NCBI GenBank assembly: GCA_017503015.1
Contig: JAFVTX010000034.1
Span: 1 to 64,000 of the forward strand
Source: Fibrobacter sp.
GTDB taxonomy: Bacteria; Fibrobacterota; Fibrobacteria; Fibrobacterales; Fibrobacteraceae
Length of the DNA: 64,000 nucleotides
Direction: 5' to 3'
Under the pieces are notes generated by a model that saw only the letters and a program-made list of their open reading frames with translations, was not told the origin of the DNA and ran no database searches. The translations under genes and the position numbers were made by a program. Positions 8,827 to 19,138 of the stretch are shown here, piece after piece. How positions within the stretch are numbered: the stretch's first letter is position 1; each line of letters starts with the position of its first letter.

Positions 8827-8859
8827 TGTCATTTTATGACACAAAAATGAAAGTATATT
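8827..8859 (+). promoter_or_regulatory. Palindromic operator-like site and -10 element upstream of the HIRAN gene
   Basis: TGTCAT-TTT-ATGACA (8827-8841) is a perfect 6-bp inverted repeat. It lies where the -35 region would be relative to TATATT at 8854-8859. The gene itself has a strong AAGGAGG before its ATG at 8890, so this is a leadered promoter with a possible repressor or activator site. The regulator is unknown. Confidence 0.5.
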
Positions 8860-8889
8860 TGCAGTACAACCTTCAACAAGGAGGCCAAC

Positions 8890-9906
8890 ATGGCTAAAGA
8901 AATCTTCTACGTCAAGGTCGAAACGGCCAAAACTGCAACCGTCCATGCCTTCTCCCGTAGCGAAACCGGCATCCTGGACTACGCAGGCACGGCCACACCG
9001 CAGACCGCAGAACTTTCCCAGATGCAAAATGTGGAAGGCAGCGCCTACTTCACACCTTCGTGGTACACCTTCCTGCCCACAAACCTGCAGGCGGAAATTT
9101 CGGTTTTCCTGCCCGCAAGCATAGAGAACCTAGACGCCAACCAGTATTCCTTTTTGTTGCACGTGGGGGCGCTGCTTCTTGCCGTACAGGAAAAGGACGG
9201 CCTTCTGGCGGCAGAACTCCTGCACCGCCGTTCCATGGTATTCGCAAATTTCACCCCGATTTTGCTACACATCTTGAAGCCCGTGGCGGCAGAGGCCCTG
9301 TTTGCATTTGTCTATGGCGGTTTTCGTGGCGAAAGCAACTTCCAACGCATTTACGCCAACAATGCCCCCATATCGACAGGCGAGACTGACGCCGCGGCCA
9401 TCCTCTTTGCCGCCGCCCGCGACACCCTGAAACCCGATTCCGAAAAAGAATCAGCCGAAGCCATGTTCATCCGCTATTTCAGCGAAAACGCGGACCGCCA
9501 TTTCGACTTTACCATGGGAATCGTGGGAGCGTCCAACCACCCCTGGCTTGCGGGAATCGACAAATTCAAGGACCTTTCCAACAGCGCAACCGGATTCCAT
9601 TTCGCCAGCGCCCCCGATGCCGTCGGACAAAAATACCAGGATGTCTTTGCCTCGCTCAAGACCAAAGTGCAGGCCGAGCCCTACAACCCCCACGACCACA
9701 ACGCCATCAGCGTAAGCATCGAGGATTTGACAGCGGTCATCAAGGGTTTCCGCAGCAAAGCCAAAGCGGGTTACCTGCGGGCAAACGGAGCAGCCATCCT
9801 CCGCAAGGCACGTCCCAATCTTTACGGGTACGAATCTTCCCTCTGGCGTATCGGCGGCAATCCCGATTACTTTGAGAACGCCATCGTGATACGAATAAAG
9901 TTCTAA
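8890..9906 (+). CDS. HIRAN-domain protein, first gene before recCBD
   Basis: 338 residues. The N-terminal 250 residues show no family I recognise: a mixed alpha/beta region with a helical core at about 85-145. The C-terminal part (about 262-338) fits a HIRAN domain: NPHDHNAISV (266-275) is the usual 'NPyDxNAv.V' strand, and KAGYLRANGAAIL (292-304) is the 'iGYLp..a..l' segment. HIRAN domains, known from Rad5/HLTF-type helicases and stand-alone bacterial proteins, bind DNA ends. The gene is co-oriented with recCBD, but a terminator-like hairpin (9924-9964) separates it from recC. A role with RecBCD is inference. Confidence 0.6.
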   Translation: MAKEIFYVKVETAKTATVHAFSRSETGILDYAGTATPQTAELSQMQNVEGSAYFTPSWYTFLPTNLQAEISVFLPASIENLDANQYSFLLHVGALLLAVQEKDGLLAAELLHRRSMVFANFTPILLHILKPVAAEALFAFVYGGFRGESNFQRIYANNAPISTGETDAAAILFAAARDTLKPDSEKESAEAMFIRYFSENADRHFDFTMGIVGASNHPWLAGIDKFKDLSNSATGFHFASAPDAVGQKYQDVFASLKTKVQAEPYNPHDHNAISVSIEDLTAVIKGFRSKAKAGYLRANGAAILRKARPNLYGYESSLWRIGGNPDYFENAIVIRIKF

Positions 9907-9923
9907 CATCCTACCGTTTGGAG

Positions 9924-9964
9924 AAACGCCATTATGCCTACTTTGACATTTTGGCGTTTTTTTA
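9924..9964 (+). terminator. Intrinsic terminator between the HIRAN gene and recC
   Basis: AAACGCCA (9924-9931) pairs with TGGCGTTT (9952-9959) across a 20-nt loop and is followed by a T run to 9964. The long loop makes it weaker than a classical terminator, so partial readthrough into recC is possible. Confidence 0.6.
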
Positions 9965-9997
9965 CGATATGTAGGAAGGAACACCATAAATCTTTTT

Positions 9998-10003
9998 TAG
10001 ATT
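9998..10003 (+). promoter_or_regulatory. Putative -10 hexamer of a leaderless recC promoter
   Basis: TAGATT, 6 nt before the recC ATG at 10010, with no Shine-Dalgarno between. It would restart transcription after the terminator that follows the HIRAN gene. Confidence 0.5.
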
Positions 10004-10009
10004 CTGAAT

Positions 10010-13000
10010 ATGCTACACTTGAAATTTGCCCTGAATCTGGAACATCTCGCCGACGAGATGATCGAAGAGATTTCATCTGTCTGGAAAAATCCATTCGAAG
10101 CCCCCGTAGTCATTTTCCCGGACCCGAAACTGGAGCAATGGTTCCGCCTGCGTTGGGTGAAAAAGAAGGGCGTGCTTGCGAACCTGAACAAGAGCACCAT
10201 TGACCGCTTTTTGTTCGACATTTTGGTGGGGAAAGACGACTCTAAAAAGAAATTAAGTTCCGACATGCTCGCGAACGTCATCATCTCTTACCTGCAGCAG
10301 GAATCGGACGGAAAACGCAATTATGAACTATTGGGCGAAAGCGTCAAGTCTTATCTCGAAAACGGCGGCGAATTAGACGAAAACAGACTTTTTGATTTTG
10401 CAAACGTGATGGCGGGGCTGTTCCTGGAATACGAGACGAGCCGTCCTAGCGGGTTCATTGCCGATTCCGAAACCAACGAAAGCGCAAAGGGGATTCTCGA
10501 CTGTTGGGAACAAGGCTCCTTGAAGGATTTCTTCATTACCCGCGACAAGACGGCCGCGGCAAACGAATCCTGGCAGCGTAAGTTGTATTCGTCCCTTTTC
10601 CATGCCGGCGATGGCGACAAGTCCCTTCTAACCCGGGTATTCGACAAATACGCTGAAAAAAATGGAAGAGAAATCACTTATCTCACCCTCCCCTACCTGT
10701 ACAAGGCCTGCAAAGAGGAAGACGGCAGTGTAAAATTCCACTACGAAAGCGGACTTCCTGTCTTTATTTTCGGGCTTTCGGGCATGGGACAGTTTTACCG
10801 CGTCATCTTGCAGGAATTCGCGAAAGGCAACCAGGTCTATGCGTATATCCAAAACCCGTGTATGGCATTCTGGGAAGACTGCAGCGGGACCCGCAAACCG
10901 CTTGAGAGTATGAAACTCGCGCTCCCGAAACTTGCCACCAGTCCCGACGATGAAAGCGAAACGGTAGATGCAGACGAAAACGAGCTTCTGCGCGATTGGG
11001 GCAAGGCGGGTCGCGACAACATCAAGCTGTGGAGCCTCGCTACCGATTACAATTTCATGTTCGACAGCAATTCCATCGTTGATCGGAATAGGGAAACGTC
11101 CTGCGACACACTGCTCCACAACGTGCAATGGATGATAGCGAACCGCAAAAACGTTTTCAACGAAAATGCGGGTATCCTTGCCAGAATTCCCTTTGCGAAA
11201 GACGAATCCTTCAGCGTGACCACAGCCCCCTCGAAAATCCGCGAGGTGGAAATGCTCCATTCACGCATCTGCAAACTGCTTTCTGAAAAGGATTCCGAAG
11301 GAAATCCAAAGGCGACGATTGCGGACATCCTTGTCGTGTCGCCTAATATCGACGATTACCGTACAGCCATTTTCCAGGTTTTCGACCAGACCCGCGACGG
11401 ATTTCACGTCCCCTTCAATATCGTGGACTCTGCCGCCCGCGACTCCCTTACGGCAAATGCACTCGGCATCCTTTTTTCCATCCGTGAAAAGGGCGGGCTT
11501 TCAAGGCCCGACTTTTTCGCTCTGGTGCGCAATCCCGTGGTGCAGAATGTTCGAAAAATTCATGGCGACGAGATTGCAGCCTGGGAATCCTGGGCCACCA
11601 ACATGAACATCTACCGCGACCGCATCGTGGAAGACAACGGTGAATGTCGGCACGAGGAATCCTGGATTACGGCGACACGGCGGCTTTTGCTTTCCCGATT
11701 CAGTTACGGAAGTGTCGCCACCGACGATGGAGAAATTTCTCCCTACAGCGACATCAGCAGTGCCGACAGCAATTCCCTTTATCGGTTCGTCGATGCTATC
11801 GATTCGCTGGAAAACTGGTGCAACCAGGGAACGGCGGGAGTCCCGTACGACGAACTTCCCAACCTGTATCAATTCCTGGATTCGTGGCTTTGCATGGGAA
11901 ACCCATCCAACGAACTGATGGGAGAAAGCGTCATCTACCGTTCGGTATCTGCCGCCCGTGAAAATCTTGAGTGTCAATATCATGCCGGCAGCAAGACCGT
12001 TTCGTTCAAGTGTATTTCACAGACTTTGCTAATGGCTGCGCGAGGTTCGGAATACAGTTGCGGAAACCTGTTTATCAACGGGCTGACCTTCATGAAATTC
12101 GCCCCCAACCGGATTATCCCCACAAAATACCTCTTCTTCATGGGGGCCGATGCGGCAAACTTCCCCGGTGTACGCAACACAAACACGCTTGACCTGCGCA
12201 AATCCTGCCGCCCCTGGCCCGGAGACGACACGGTCGTAAGCCGAAACCGTTACGCATTCCTCTGCCAACTCATGAGTGCCGCGGAAGGGTTCTTTATCAG
12301 TTACGTCAACAAGGACCTGCAAAAAGACGAAGACTTCTACCCTTCGTCTATCGTGAACGACATCCGCAACTTCTTGAGAAATGCGGTCAAGGCGTCCGGC
12401 ATAAAAGAGAAATCTGTTCTCAAGGAACTTTGGCCCGACGAAAACGTGCCTCTTGACGAAACACGGCCATGGAAAGACCTGTACACCCGTCGTGAAATCC
12501 GTAACAAGAAGGCTCAACTGGAATTTGGCGACAGCACCACCGTCGCGAATTTCACGCCTAGCGAAGCCGACGGCGAAGACCCGCGGCTCCCCGAACAGGC
12601 GAGCATCTACCAGTTCAAGGAATTCCTCAAGGACCCCTTTGAATTCCGCGTCGCCCAGATGATGCATATCGAAGACGAAAAGGAGGATCCCGAAAAAACG
12701 GAGTTCGAGCCAATCCATATCGACCATCTGCAGGAAACCATCATTCGACGTATGCTCCTGGCGCAAAAGTTGGGAGTTTTCGAAAACGATTACTTGAAAA
12801 CCGAAGAAAACATACGCAACTACGCCATCTCCAAGGGACTCCTGCCCAAAGGAACTTTCGGTGAACGTTCTTGGAGCGAAATTCGCGACGAAATCAACAA
12901 TCTCGCATACCTTATAGAATGTAACTACCCGAAACCGGCATTCCAGTACGGCAGGCGGTCCGTAGAACTCAAAATGAAGGGCTGGACGCTTCTCGGAAGC

Positions 13001-13555
13001 ATCCCGCTTATGGCACAAAATGCACACCAAATACATTTGATTGATACCGCAGGTGCCAATATCCATCAGTATCATTTTTTAGCGGGCTACATCCAGGCCC
13101 TCGCCCTTATCCGTGAAGCGGGACGCAAAGAACAACCTGTTCCCGAGGTGTTTGCAGACGTCTATTCAAAAACAACATGGCAGGCAAAGCGCATAGATCT
13201 TTCGCCCGCTACGGCCGAGCAGCTACTTGAACAGATTTACCATAAAATGTTTAGCGTCCAGATGAATACAAATGGTGTATGGGAGCGTTACAGCAAGGTC
13301 CTTCCCATCGACATGGTGTTAGAAAACAAAATCGAATCCTATGACGATTACGTCAATGCCTTTGGCGACGAAAACCATTCCCCCTGGAAATACTTTGCGG
13401 GCAAGAAATACTTCGACATCAAGAAAGTCAGCGGATTTTCCGACAGGTATTTTATGGACCTCTGGAAAAAGGAATGCCAGGATCTTATGGATTTGACACC
13501 CGGCTTGTGGGAACCCGGTAAAGATATCGCAGGAGTAGTCGATGACCCAGATTAA
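10010..13555 (+). CDS. recC: Exodeoxyribonuclease V subunit gamma (RecC)
   Basis: 1181 residues, slightly longer than E. coli RecC. It holds the RecBCD complex together, splits the duplex and scans for Chi through inactivated helicase domains; accordingly no Walker A motif is seen. Family features include the N-terminal FPDPKLEQWFRLRWVKKKGV, the HSRICKLL ... ADILVVSPNIDDYRTAIFQV segment (about 415-455) and the GLSGMGQFYRVILQEFAKG stretch (about 255-275). The 3' end overlaps recB by 14 nt. The presence of recD next door, and the absence of an AddB-like Walker motif and iron-sulphur cysteines, rule out AddAB. Confidence 0.92.
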   Translation: MLHLKFALNLEHLADEMIEEISSVWKNPFEAPVVIFPDPKLEQWFRLRWVKKKGVLANLNKSTIDRFLFDILVGKDDSKKKLSSDMLANVIISYLQQESDGKRNYELLGESVKSYLENGGELDENRLFDFANVMAGLFLEYETSRPSGFIADSETNESAKGILDCWEQGSLKDFFITRDKTAAANESWQRKLYSSLFHAGDGDKSLLTRVFDKYAEKNGREITYLTLPYLYKACKEEDGSVKFHYESGLPVFIFGLSGMGQFYRVILQEFAKGNQVYAYIQNPCMAFWEDCSGTRKPLESMKLALPKLATSPDDESETVDADENELLRDWGKAGRDNIKLWSLATDYNFMFDSNSIVDRNRETSCDTLLHNVQWMIANRKNVFNENAGILARIPFAKDESFSVTTAPSKIREVEMLHSRICKLLSEKDSEGNPKATIADILVVSPNIDDYRTAIFQVFDQTRDGFHVPFNIVDSAARDSLTANALGILFSIREKGGLSRPDFFALVRNPVVQNVRKIHGDEIAAWESWATNMNIYRDRIVEDNGECRHEESWITATRRLLLSRFSYGSVATDDGEISPYSDISSADSNSLYRFVDAIDSLENWCNQGTAGVPYDELPNLYQFLDSWLCMGNPSNELMGESVIYRSVSAARENLECQYHAGSKTVSFKCISQTLLMAARGSEYSCGNLFINGLTFMKFAPNRIIPTKYLFFMGADAANFPGVRNTNTLDLRKSCRPWPGDDTVVSRNRYAFLCQLMSAAEGFFISYVNKDLQKDEDFYPSSIVNDIRNFLRNAVKASGIKEKSVLKELWPDENVPLDETRPWKDLYTRREIRNKKAQLEFGDSTTVANFTPSEADGEDPRLPEQASIYQFKEFLKDPFEFRVAQMMHIEDEKEDPEKTEFEPIHIDHLQETIIRRMLLAQKLGVFENDYLKTEENIRNYAISKGLLPKGTFGERSWSEIRDEINNLAYLIECNYPKPAFQYGRRSVELKMKGWTLLGSIPLMAQNAHQIHLIDTAGANIHQYHFLAGYIQALALIREAGRKEQPVPEVFADVYSKTTWQAKRIDLSPATAEQLLEQIYHKMFSVQMNTNGVWERYSKVLPIDMVLENKIESYDDYVNAFGDENHSPWKYFAGKKYFDIKKVSGFSDRYFMDLWKKECQDLMDLTPGLWEPGKDIAGVVDDPD

Positions 13556-16500
13556 ACTTTTTAATATTGACGATTTTCATTTTGGAAACAACCTGTATAT
13601 CGATGCTTCGGCAGGTACCGGAAAGACCTACACCATACAGCAGTTGGTAGCGAAACTGGTTCGTGGTGAAAAGGGCACACCCGGAATTCCGCTTTCCAAG
13701 ATTCTAATTGTTACCTATACCGACAAGGCAACAGGAGAACTCCGAGACCGTATCCGACAGAAAATGGAAGAATGTCTCGCCGAAGAAAACCATGATTGTT
13801 ACCGCGAGGCACTTCAAAACATTCACACGGCACCCATATTCACCATTCATTCTTTTTGCCAGAAAGTACTCCATGATTTTGCGTATGAGGCCGGATCCTC
13901 GTTCAACCTTGACGTCGTTTCGGACGACAGTATCGAGACCTTAATCCAGCGGCTTATACGCGACAGATGGTCATTCGAATCTTCTTTTAAGGAAATCCTG
14001 AACACCCCCAAGTTCAAGATGGATACTTTCGTCAAGAATTTCGTGAATGCAGCCGGATTCATGCTGCAAAATCACGGGACAAGCCAATTTGAACCCGATT
14101 ACAGCACCCTTGACGGAATTCTCACATGGTATCCAGAAGCGAAAGACGCATGGGATACGTTGCTTGAAAATAAGGATGCTACCGCCGAGAGAGAATTCAA
14201 GAACAAGAAGAACACCGTAAAGCTTTCTGACTTCATCGAAGCGCTTAAATCATACGACGGAACGGATAAGCTATTTAGCGGAAAAAAATTTGACAAGAAT
14301 TGGCGCGGCATTTGGAATACCAATGAATTGAACAATGCCATAGATTTTTTCTTTGACATTCAGAAAAAAGACCTGCAAAAAAAGAAACTCAGCAATTATC
14401 ACCAGTTCATTTGCGACCATGTGAACGAACTTGTTGAACTGTGGCAGAAGGGCAAACGAGAAAGCAAGTCGCAGTCTTTCAGTGATATGATTAATGGAGT
14501 CCACGATTCCATAGTGAGAGGAAACGGCGAGCTGTTGCAAAAACTACGGGAAACCTACCGCTACGCCATCATTGACGAGTTTCAGGACACAAACCAGTTG
14601 CAATGGGATATCTTCAAGACCATTTTCCTGGACGCCCCCGACAACAACATTGTGGTAGTGGGAGACCCCAAGCAGTCTATTTTTTCGTTCCAGGGAGCCG
14701 ATGTCGGCGTGTATCGTAAGGCCATCTCCGAAATCGGCAGAGAAAACGGGCGACGACTTTCGACAAACAACCGTTCCAGCGATGAAATTATTGAAGCCTG
14801 CAATGAACTGTTCAAAGAAGACTTTTTAGACAAGGGTGACTTTTCTAAATCGGAAGTTCCCCCAGCAGAGCGCAAGAAAAAGTCTCCCACTCTGAACGGC
14901 AAACCGACCAAGCCCTTCTGGATTTCAAGGATTAACGACGAATTCGAATTTGCCGACTTTGCCGTGAGAAAGATTGTGGAGTGTTGCGCTCCTAGCGCTA
15001 TAGACAGCGCAAAAACGGCATTGCAGGTCTTCGACAAGGACAAGAAGGAAATGCGGAATGTTCGCTTTTCGGATTTCGCCATTCTTTCCCGTACCCGGAG
15101 CGAAATGACAGCCATGGAAAGCGCGCTTGCGCAGGTGGGAATACCGTATGCCCGTTACAAGGACACGAACCTGTTCAGCGGCAGGGAATGCGCCAACTGG
15201 ATTTCGTTCCTGAAAGCCCTTGATGCGCCCGATTTTTCCAGCTGGAATCGGAAATTCTTGAACGAGGCTCTCATCACGGACTTTTTCAGGGTGCCTCTGG
15301 AACGCGTCGAAGACGAATCGTTCACTTACCCGACCAGCCGAATCATGAAACTGTTTATGTCTTGGCGGCATCTGGTTTCAAAGTCCCGCTGGGCAGAACT
15401 TCAAGAAAGCATTTACCAGGAAACCGAAATAGACAAGTATCTGAGTACGCCTGCGACCTTGCAGCAGCTGGCAAAAATCAAGCAAATCGGGACCTACATT
15501 TTCGATTTTCTATACAACAACCACGTTTCCCTTGAAGAAACCATAAAGCACCTGCAGGGACTTGCGAATGCTTCCGAAGACGTGGATGATACCGATGGCA
15601 ACCTTGTAGCGAAAGGCAGCGATTTTGATGCGGTAAGCCTTATGACAATTTATGCGTCAAAAGGGCTCGCATTCCCTATCGCGATTATTACGGGCGGACT
15701 CCGGGGCGACAATTTCAAACCTGAACGCGCCCCATATTCGTTCAGCTTCGAAGGAAAGAAATTCTTCGGTTTTGATGCCGACGTTTCCCGTAGAATCAGT
15801 CTAGACGAAAACCACGACGAATGGAGACGCCTTATCTATGTCGCCTATACGCGCGCAGAGTCCCTGATGATTGTACCGCGGTACAAAATCTGGCACGAAG
15901 ATGCAGGCGATGGGGACTGGAAAATCAACCCAAACAAGCCTTTTGCATTTTTGGCCCGTGCTCTTGCAAATCTTTCTGAAACAAAATACGCCCGCGAGCA
16001 ACAAGACGACCCCTATGCCCAAACAAGTGTCCCTGATTTAAAGAATATCGTCGCCCAGATATTGCACAATTCAAAAGATGCAAAAATCGATACAAGCGAA
16101 CTGCCCAATTTCGAAGTCCTGCAGCGCAGCGTAAACGAAGCCTGCATCTACCAGTATTCCTATTCCAGTCTTGCATCTAAAAAACGACTGCTCGAAAGCA
16201 AGTCCGATACTGCTCGTAACGAGTTTGACGATATTTCGATTGACGGAAACCGGACAAACCGCGAAGACGCCGTTGTCTCGGGCCGTGATGACCAAGATGC
16301 CGGAGTTGCTCCTCTTTCTCGTGAAAATGCGAGCATCGTAATTGACGAAGCCTCTTCGCTGGTGATTCCCTGCAACAACTACGACAGGACGGCGCCCATT
16401 TCGAGCCTTCCAAACTATCCCCGCGGAGCCAACTTGGGCGACGCATTACATAAGGTTTTTGAAAACCTGGATTTTGAACGTATTGGCAACTTGCCCGACG

Positions 16501-17168
16501 AAGATGCCGCCCGCAACGATGAAGAACTTAGCAACCTGATAATCCGAATCTATCTGGGAAATTCCATCCATATCCAGGAACATCCCGAATGGAGCAGCCT
16601 CACAGCCGGCTTTATCTGGAACACAATGAATGCGGAACTTCCCGAAATTCACGGAAGCGAGGCGACCGGAAAGACTTTCCGACTCAAGACTTTGCCCGCA
16701 AGCAATCGTCGGGCCGAAATGGGATTTCATTTAGACGCCCACCATTCGGACAAGTCCAACTGGGTTAATATTCTCTGCAAGGGATTTATCGACCTGATGT
16801 TCGTTCGGAAGGGCGATGATGGTGAAGACTATTACTCCATTCTAGACTGGAAATCGGACGTAATGGACGACGCCGACTACAGCGACAAGGACGCCCTCTC
16901 TCAAAAAATAACGGACGAGTATTCTGTGCAACGGGTCCTCTATAGCTACCTGCTCATAAAATGGCTCAGGCAGTTCTACGGCAACATGAGTGAAGAAGAT
17001 ATTTACGAGCGGCATTTTGGCGGAATCTACTACGCCCTGGCCCGAGGCACCCATGCAAATACCAGCAACGGTATTTATTGTCAAACGTGGAAATGCTATG
17101 CCGATCTCGAAAGGAGCTACCGCAACATAGCCACACTCATGGGGCGCAGTGCAAAGGAGACTGCATAA
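13542..17168 (+). CDS. recB: Exodeoxyribonuclease V subunit beta (RecB helicase-nuclease)
   Basis: 1208 residues: a 3'-5' UvrD-type helicase fused to a nuclease. Walker A is DASAGTGKTYTI (21-32); motif II is AIIDEFQDTNQLQWDIF; motif III is VVGDPKQSIFSFQGADV; motif V/VI regions are SLMTIYASKGLAFPI and LIYVAYTRAE. The C-terminal nuclease has YYSILDWKSDVM, with the D and K of the RecB nuclease motif intact, so it should be catalytically active. AGGAG precedes the ATG inside the recC end. The stop overlaps the recD start as TAATG. Together RecBCD repairs double-strand breaks and degrades foreign linear DNA. Confidence 0.95.
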   Translation: MTQIKLFNIDDFHFGNNLYIDASAGTGKTYTIQQLVAKLVRGEKGTPGIPLSKILIVTYTDKATGELRDRIRQKMEECLAEENHDCYREALQNIHTAPIFTIHSFCQKVLHDFAYEAGSSFNLDVVSDDSIETLIQRLIRDRWSFESSFKEILNTPKFKMDTFVKNFVNAAGFMLQNHGTSQFEPDYSTLDGILTWYPEAKDAWDTLLENKDATAEREFKNKKNTVKLSDFIEALKSYDGTDKLFSGKKFDKNWRGIWNTNELNNAIDFFFDIQKKDLQKKKLSNYHQFICDHVNELVELWQKGKRESKSQSFSDMINGVHDSIVRGNGELLQKLRETYRYAIIDEFQDTNQLQWDIFKTIFLDAPDNNIVVVGDPKQSIFSFQGADVGVYRKAISEIGRENGRRLSTNNRSSDEIIEACNELFKEDFLDKGDFSKSEVPPAERKKKSPTLNGKPTKPFWISRINDEFEFADFAVRKIVECCAPSAIDSAKTALQVFDKDKKEMRNVRFSDFAILSRTRSEMTAMESALAQVGIPYARYKDTNLFSGRECANWISFLKALDAPDFSSWNRKFLNEALITDFFRVPLERVEDESFTYPTSRIMKLFMSWRHLVSKSRWAELQESIYQETEIDKYLSTPATLQQLAKIKQIGTYIFDFLYNNHVSLEETIKHLQGLANASEDVDDTDGNLVAKGSDFDAVSLMTIYASKGLAFPIAIITGGLRGDNFKPERAPYSFSFEGKKFFGFDADVSRRISLDENHDEWRRLIYVAYTRAESLMIVPRYKIWHEDAGDGDWKINPNKPFAFLARALANLSETKYAREQQDDPYAQTSVPDLKNIVAQILHNSKDAKIDTSELPNFEVLQRSVNEACIYQYSYSSLASKKRLLESKSDTARNEFDDISIDGNRTNREDAVVSGRDDQDAGVAPLSRENASIVIDEASSLVIPCNNYDRTAPISSLPNYPRGANLGDALHKVFENLDFERIGNLPDEDAARNDEELSNLIIRIYLGNSIHIQEHPEWSSLTAGFIWNTMNAELPEIHGSEATGKTFRLKTLPASNRRAEMGFHLDAHHSDKSNWVNILCKGFIDLMFVRKGDDGEDYYSILDWKSDVMDDADYSDKDALSQKITDEYSVQRVLYSYLLIKWLRQFYGNMSEEDIYERHFGGIYYALARGTHANTSNGIYCQTWKCYADLERSYRNIATLMGRSAKETA

Positions 17169-19138
17169 TGGAAAATACGAACATCTGCGAAACTACAGCT
17201 GAGTTTTACTCCTTGCTCCGCGAAATGCGCGGAATTTCCCCTATCGCCGAAAAAATGCACAATCTGCTCTGCGACCTGCAGCAAAGACCGCACCTTTCGG
17301 GCGACGCGCAGAAAGTACTATACATCTACCTCTCCCTGCTGGAAGACGGCAACACCCGTATCCCCCTCGATTCCGAACGCCTTTTCGCCAAATGGAAACA
17401 AAAATGGGATGGTCTCGTTGTGCAAGCAGAAAGCCGGGATACGTTGAAAGGCATCAAGCGGCAGGAACCTTACGCGGCGGCGGAAATCTTTTCGTCAGTC
17501 ATCAGGAATGGCGTGAAGGACTTGCTTTCGGGGAACTATGCGCAAATTGTTGGAAAGGAATCAACTCCCCTATGCATTCAGCAAACGACCAATGGCTGTT
17601 ATCTCATTTCGGCCAAGCACCTTGAAGACAAAGGCCATATCGAAAACATCTTCAAGTCGGGATTCTTTAAGGAAGTTACACTTGGTAGCAACGACGGGGA
17701 ACAGACAAAGCAATTCGTTCAGGGGCTTTTGCGCGAAGGTTCCCCTATTGTTTTTGACGACCGTCAAATCGAAGTTATCACCCGAGGCGCAAAGCAGAAT
17801 CTGATTATTACGGGCGGTCCCGGCACTGGAAAGACAACCGTTATCGGTTTTTTGCTGTGGAAACTCTTTGAATGTGACGCCAATTACCTAAACTGGGATT
17901 TGTACATGGCGGCCCCCAGCGGCAAGGCAGCGGACCGTCTCGCCGAAAGCATGGAAGATACCCTGCGCGAAATTTCGGATTCGAAAAAGAAGGAACACCC
18001 CCGCATTTTAGAAAAATTGACAAAGGCTTCGAGCAGTACACTCCATAGGCTCTTGAAATACAGTATTGCAAAGGGCGGATTCACATTCAATTCTGGCAAT
18101 CCGCTTCCTGAGCAGGCCATCTACATCATTGACGAAGCCAGCATGATTGACATCTCGCTCTTTGCCGCCTTCCTCCAGGCTCTCCCCCCCAGCGGGAACT
18201 TCAAGCTGTTCATCCTTGGAGACCCGAACCAGCTACCCTCCGTCGATGCAGGCGCGGTACTTGGAAACATCCTGGAATTCAACCGCAATTTCGTGGTCAA
18301 GCTCACCCGTTCCAATCGTTTCGGCGACGATTCTAAAATAGGCATACTCGCCGGAAAAATCAAGCGGGGCGAAATAGTCCCGTTCGAAGCATCTTCATTT
18401 GAACCACACATGCGCTATTGGGAACAAGCCGACAGCATCTACATGCTTGACCTGAATCAGGGAAAAACCCTCTCCCGCAGAGAGGAACTCCGGGCAGTCG
18501 AAAGCCTTGTCTGCAAGTGGACAAAAAAATTCTACTCACCGCTTATGGAACTTGCCCAGTCCGTAAACCCGGACATCGCTGCAGATTGCATTCCTCCCGA
18601 GCAACTTGAAATCCGGAACCAGTTATGGGAATTGGCCAATCGGTCACGCATCCTATCGGCAGAACGGCGAGGAAACCGGGGCGTTGAAACATTGAACCAA
18701 ATCGTCTCGGAAACGCTTACCCAGGCTGTGGCCCCCAAGTTCGTGGGACAAATCCTGATATTTAATCGCAACCAGAGCGAATTTGAACTGTACAACGGCG
18801 ACACGGGAATCGTGGTGCAGTCCGCGAGACATGACCAGCTTTTCTTGATGCTCAAGAAAAAATCCCAGTTTGTATTCTACCCGCTCTCCTATTTCCCAGA
18901 AGATTGCCTAGACCCCTCCTTCGCGATTACCATCCACAAATCCCAGGGATCCGGCTACCCGAACATCATGATGTTCCTGCCTACGCGAAAGGGACATCCG
19001 TTATTGAATCGCCAGATTCTTTATACGGGTGTGACTCGTACAAAAAAACAGAGCCTGACCATCATCGCCACCCCCGAAACCTTTAAGGCCGCCTGCGAGA
19101 CGGTCATCGAACGCGATACAGGTATAGAAATCCAGTAG
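17168..19138 (+). CDS. recD: Exodeoxyribonuclease V subunit alpha (RecD helicase)
   Basis: 656 residues, a 5'-3' SF1B helicase. Walker A is ITGGPGTGKTTVIGF; motif II IIDEASMIDISLF; motif III FILGDPNQLPSVDAGAVL; and the C-terminal AITIHKSQGSGYPNIMMF is the RecD/UvrD_C2 signature. The start is the ATG at 17168 overlapping the recB stop; AAAGGAG lies 8 nt before it. An in-frame ATG at 17078 lies inside recB and is not credible. The order recC-recB-recD without ptrA between differs from E. coli. Confidence 0.93.
   Translation: MENTNICETTAEFYSLLREMRGISPIAEKMHNLLCDLQQRPHLSGDAQKVLYIYLSLLEDGNTRIPLDSERLFAKWKQKWDGLVVQAESRDTLKGIKRQEPYAAAEIFSSVIRNGVKDLLSGNYAQIVGKESTPLCIQQTTNGCYLISAKHLEDKGHIENIFKSGFFKEVTLGSNDGEQTKQFVQGLLREGSPIVFDDRQIEVITRGAKQNLIITGGPGTGKTTVIGFLLWKLFECDANYLNWDLYMAAPSGKAADRLAESMEDTLREISDSKKKEHPRILEKLTKASSSTLHRLLKYSIAKGGFTFNSGNPLPEQAIYIIDEASMIDISLFAAFLQALPPSGNFKLFILGDPNQLPSVDAGAVLGNILEFNRNFVVKLTRSNRFGDDSKIGILAGKIKRGEIVPFEASSFEPHMRYWEQADSIYMLDLNQGKTLSRREELRAVESLVCKWTKKFYSPLMELAQSVNPDIAADCIPPEQLEIRNQLWELANRSRILSAERRGNRGVETLNQIVSETLTQAVAPKFVGQILIFNRNQSEFELYNGDTGIVVQSARHDQLFLMLKKKSQFVFYPLSYFPEDCLDPSFAITIHKSQGSGYPNIMMFLPTRKGHPLLNRQILYTGVTRTKKQSLTIIATPETFKAACETVIERDTGIEIQ

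Follow-up and report, generated by a model that had tools for sequence, protein, structure and literature searches.

What is a HIRAN-domain gene doing directly ahead of recCBD in Fibrobacter, and is its lasting partner the RecBCD enzyme or something else? In the window, the 64-kb stretch of DNA analysed here, a 338-aa ORF lay 103 nt ahead of recC, and the first-pass annotation had proposed that its product is linked to RecBCD, loading, marking or protecting DNA ends, or else is a defence accessory. Much of the local architecture in that proposal was confirmed (Table 1). The palindrome at the promoter was exact (TGTCATTTTATGACA), and TIGRFAM matches bore out the identities of recC, recB and recD downstream. 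The terminator suggested between the HIRAN gene and recC corresponded to a real hairpin (-24 kcal/mol for positions 9900-9975, z -5.5), which was not among the terminators listed by a simple terminator scan. Genes for chorismate mutase and prephenate dehydrogenase were found upstream of the HIRAN gene, in divergent orientation.

Table 1. Features of the HIRAN-recCBD locus, with positions in the 64-kb window
Feature	Position	Strand	Details and basis
Palindromic operator TGTCAT-TTT-ATGACA	8827..8841	.	Exact; counterparts before 40/42 HIRAN copies and before recA operons
TATATTTG, probable -7/-10 promoter box	8854..8861	+	Starts 12 nt past the palindrome
Shine-Dalgarno AAGGAGG	8878..8884	+	Sequence; strong ribosome site
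HIRAN-domain protein	8890..9906	+	338 aa; ORF and family alignment A1
N-terminal domain, ~203 residues	8890..9498	+	AlphaFold2 pLDDT 89; known fold not found
Divergent HIRAN domain (predicted)	9499..9903	+	Pfam, VIA-align and signature
Terminator-like hairpin and T run	9920..9963	+	Fold; similar in 4 near relatives
recC	10010..13555	+	TIGR01450, E 2.8e-76, under equivalog cut-off
recB	13542..17168	+	TIGR00609, E 1e-120, under equivalog cut-off
recD	17168..19138	+	TIGR01447, E 2.2e-80, under equivalog cut-off

On its predicted fold, the C-terminal part of the protein is a divergent HIRAN domain. The sole Pfam family match was to HIRAN (PF08797) and was weak, at 14.7 bits against a gathering cut-off of 24.7 (residues 231-304); the best relative seen reached 22.4 bits (G123), and 12 of 22 aligned relatives matched PF08797 at E<0.1. 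AlphaFold2 modelled the whole protein with a pLDDT of 86, and the five best VIA-align rows for this model were HIRAN structures with modest Z scores of 4.2-5.3 over 88-94 residues, including Lactobacillus plantarum lp_0118 (3k2y; Z 5.3, 94 residues, 3.7 A) and human HLTF HIRAN (Z 4.2-4.4, 88-93 residues). Residues ~200-338 formed the superposed part. No HIRAN entry appeared in the best 50 Foldseek rows for the model, a domain profile reached an E of only ~0.3 against HLTF chains, and hhalign against canonical HIRAN proteins of the same bacterial family gave a weak result (probability 9%, E 0.0036, one pair) in which the same signature was aligned. That signature, E-P-x-N-P-x-D-x-N-A-I ... G-Y, was kept across the family, with N266, D269, N271, A272, G294 and Y295 invariant in a 22-row alignment. 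The weak Pfam match, the model and the conserved signature agree on the presence of the HIRAN domain that had first been annotated. With the PF08797 family (human HLTF, lp_0118) the window domain shares its predicted fold and its NPxD-NAI ... GY signature; it differs in scoring under the Pfam cut-off and in having a longer two-helix stretch between strands 1 and 2. It is not fused to a helicase and is instead joined to a novel N-terminal domain. This domain was modelled confidently and comprised ~203 residues, shorter than the 250 first supposed. It had been called unrecognised, and no known fold was matched by the domain alone against the PDB (best VIA-align Z 2.9; no Foldseek match at E<=0.001), although a fold search of this kind may miss a known fold. 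Its comparison as possible kin of canonical HIRAN was negative.

Proteins of this type were encoded by 42 of 167 Fibrobacterota genomes, many of the genomes being draft assemblies; the 42 were all within one family and distributed over the genera g1 (n=36), g18 (n=4) and g23 (n=2); two genomes (G019, G153) carried two copies each. We rejected a phage or plasmid origin, as tblastn against phages and plasmids returned no match at E<=1 and viral contigs held no relative. The gene adjoined recC in 12 of the 42 genomes, comprising 11 intact pairs (G000, G022, G111, G112, G133, G135, G142, G134, G129, G030 and G123) and one pair split over two contigs (G017). A decayed HIRAN remnant preceded recC in G026, and the two genes lay within 5 kb of each other in G141 and G021. 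On the HIRAN tree, adjacency to recC required three label changes compared to a shuffled mean of 9.9 and occurred in two separated clades, suggesting that the pairing is partly old and has often been lost by relocation. In four of the 11 intact pairs the gap to recC was only 26-32 nt and free of a hairpin, so that recCBD would be readable from the HIRAN promoter. These features would be expected if the protein were a dedicated RecBCD partner acting on DNA ends. However, the gene was located elsewhere, with recC on a different contig, in 27 of the 42 genomes; a terminator-like hairpin separated the genes in the other seven intact pairs; recC was present in 102 of 111 genomes of the family compared to 42 with HIRAN; and the operator was kept even where recC was not a neighbour. 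Tight pairing with recCBD was thus rejected, and a dedicated partnership is very unlikely. Of the link first drawn to RecBCD, the adjacency in two clades stands, but most relatives carry the gene away from recCBD, the outcome that the first-pass annotation had named as refuting. The strict operator was found ahead of recC itself in two of the 17 recC loci examined (G029, G018; at about -245), a comparison with the G017 row misaligned owing to its truncated flank. The recC promoters of G005, G015 and G028 (L050, L044, L051) carried another palindrome-like stretch beside the promoter box (TGTCACTCAAGTGACA in G005). Within the genus, recC was highly diverse, with the N-terminal ~290 residues better preserved (L078 and L131 included).

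The gene's conserved partner is its switch, not recBCD; the first-pass annotation underestimated the operator. Counted in the 64 kb alone, the palindrome was not beyond chance (one found, 1.62 expected at two mismatches); its significance comes from conservation. A loose motif, TGWCA-N5-TGWCA, shaped after sites had been seen, occurred within 260 nt upstream of 40 of 42 HIRAN copies (shuffled mean 0.036), a set that left out the cut G017 and the decayed G026 copies, and near matches were visible in the two regions that missed it (G034, G165). Most sites were positioned at exactly -63, regardless of the neighbouring genes. What had been only a possible operator is thus a recurrent element of the HIRAN promoter. 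The exact palindrome TGTCAT-N3-ATGACA was present at 177 sites in 65 of 80 genomes of the genus, and its reversed control at none. We examined a subset of 72 of these sites, which are not independent because related genomes share targets; on one side, 58 of them were followed after 11-12 nt by a TAnnTTTG-like box (1.9 expected). Automated orientation misjudged the side at least once (L162), and sites within a gene or lacking a promoter box (e.g., C30 in G000) are probably due to chance. Placed 11-12 nt before the box, the operator overlaps the upstream promoter element and would thus fit either a repressor or a sigma-contacting activator. A search of viral contigs for the operator with its promoter box, made with two patterns, gave a single contig per pattern, which we took as chance. 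No description of TGTCAT-N3-ATGACA appeared among the papers listed by searches of an open-access library on Fibrobacter LexA, recA, SOS response or DNA damage.

The most constant target was recA. Four of the sites first examined preceded a CinA-RecA gene pair (CinA Pfam E 1.2e-54). We located recA in 22 genomes, of which 21 had the operator with at most one mismatch (10 strict) at -800 to -600, before cinA, where 0.49 would be expected; in the 22nd genome, G158, a strict site was situated 1.4 kb upstream. The recA site of the window genome was imperfect (TGTCATTTTTTGTCG), and the recA operator was present also in two genomes that lacked exact palindromes altogether (G025, G126). Half-site orientation was partly matched between the two targets, with TGACA..TGTCA before recA (G158) and HIRAN (G155-G157) in genus g18, and TGTCA..TGTCA ahead of both genes in G153.

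As recA is a classical LexA target and only one strong S24/LexA protein was found per genome (12 of 12 genomes), the operator might be a second type of LexA site, which would make this the usual SOS regulon under an atypical box. The box TGCNCN4GTGCA, which we take to be the published LexA box of Fibrobacter from the F. succinogenes SOS regulon, was exact before lexA in six of 12 genomes, including the window genome (TGCCCAATTGTGCA), and thus differs from the operator. In the sequences compared the two boxes were unmixed: the operator was absent before lexA in all 12 genomes, and the LexA box was absent before recA in all 22 genomes and from all 42 HIRAN upstream regions. A second LexA site is therefore highly doubtful. 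The F. succinogenes regulon resembles the one described here in organism group and in having a palindrome near the promoter box, and differs in its operator; lexA and the palindrome genes have no box in common. We regard it as probable that the HIRAN gene belongs to a LexA-independent Fibrobacteraceae regulon that includes recA and is governed by a putative dimeric regulator; since the operator also precedes cinA-recA, its most constant member, a DNA-damage response is the most probable function.

Beyond recA, the operator preceded a second type of HIRAN gene. Canonical HIRAN genes above the Pfam cut-off were found in eight of 111 family genomes, seven of them in g1, and six of these seven were under the operator (four strict, two with one mismatch) in a two- or three-gene operon. 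At these loci (L222, L302, L303, L304, L305, L307) the gene for a coiled-coil protein of ~265-270 residues preceded that for the canonical HIRAN protein of 130 aa, and the one coiled-coil partner tested had a weak DnaJ match. The site was absent before the canonical HIRAN gene of the seventh g1 genome (G127), which was a fragment, and before that of G106, of another genus, in which the coiled-coil and HIRAN pair was present. Both HIRAN families occurred together in one genome (G021), in a sample that offers few genomes for judging exclusion. Several other families recurred under the operator. A family of ~75 residues (PWDSGFS...; L163, L224, L231, L233, L249) was seen in several genomes; the one member tested had no Pfam match, and it could be a damage-induced small protein. 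Eight loci (L154, L202, L211, L221, L225, L226, L237, L255) had the operator, then a conserved leader of ~309 nt, then a GNAT-like gene. Sigma-factor-like proteins of 211-253 residues were encoded under the operator at four loci (L201, L257, L218, L250), and the two of them that were tested matched no Pfam family.

Further targets included ORF6N, RhuM, DUF1016/PDDEXK, AbiEi-AbiEii, C5 methyltransferase, Fic, macrodomain, PIN, SIMPL and MORN genes. Genes not related to repair were among them (SIMPL, MORN, a lipoprotein-like gene and a transposase), and no obvious autoregulated repressor was found among the targets seen. PADLOC (E<1e-4), applied to 17 of 18 first-gene clusters, matched seven to known or candidate defence models (ORF6N, DUF1016, AbiE, MTase, PIN, Fic and DrmE-like first genes), covering 25 of the 48 sites whose first gene was at least 100 aa. 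In comparison, one of 10 neighbouring control ORFs matched, in a control set that was small and held some ORFs that look spurious. At L256 (G036) the operator lay ahead of an 863-aa DrmE-like (DISARM) gene, a weak match. Such company could mean that the operator is the site of a regulator of acquired defence and toxin-antitoxin genes, of which HIRAN is one and into which recA was drafted. We consider this unlikely, though less so than the readings centred on RecBCD or LexA, because recA was the target common to nearly all genomes tested, even the two without an exact site, and because the window HIRAN protein matched none of the PADLOC families; among its 22 relatives there was a single hit, to PDC-M03B (E 0.023). 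The first-pass suggestion of a defence accessory thus gains indirect backing from the operator's companion genes and none from the protein itself.

A LexA-independent regulon of this kind would have parallels. PMC12288472 and PMC6789036 describe LexA-independent damage responses elsewhere that are run by WYL activators (PafBC, SiwR, DriD) or XRE repressors (DdrO), likewise as a further damage regulon alongside LexA or in its place. The PafBC motif is given as non-palindromic in PMC6789036, unlike the operator found here. In Bacteroidetes, phage-type repressors act at palindromes with N5 spacers, according to PMC8565304, and the non-canonical LexA regulons described there (GGA-N5-TCC, CTAA-N5-TTAG) resemble ours in having a 5-nt-spacer palindrome and damage genes, and differ in their half-sites and in that Fibrobacter here has a canonical LexA. 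Among the XRE systems, the DdrO motif presumably has a shorter spacer than our operator.

We postulate that a dimeric regulator separate from LexA would act at TGTCAT-N3-ATGACA over the upstream promoter element, ~11-12 nt ahead of the TATATTTG box, with LexA retaining its own box. Upon damage, or phage attack that creates DNA ends, the HIRAN protein would be made alongside RecA; this expectation of damage induction derives from recA being a target. Its HIRAN domain may then bind stalled forks or free 3' ends of DNA, and the novel N-terminal domain may recruit or block other factors. Where no terminator separates HIRAN from a following recC, recCBD would be drawn into this response as well.

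It is quite possible, and we suggest it tentatively, that Fibrobacteraceae run two parallel damage programmes, that of LexA and that of the palindrome, the latter making recA, two types of HIRAN operon and a changing complement of anti-phage and toxin-antitoxin genes respond together, arming repair and immunity at the same time. A recA gene with a box apart from that of LexA, in bacteria that retain LexA, is relevant to the rewiring of SOS networks. With one operator over recA and defence genes, the idea that damage triggers immunity could be put to a direct test in a genus that can be cultured, and bacterial HIRAN proteins would gain a testable role.
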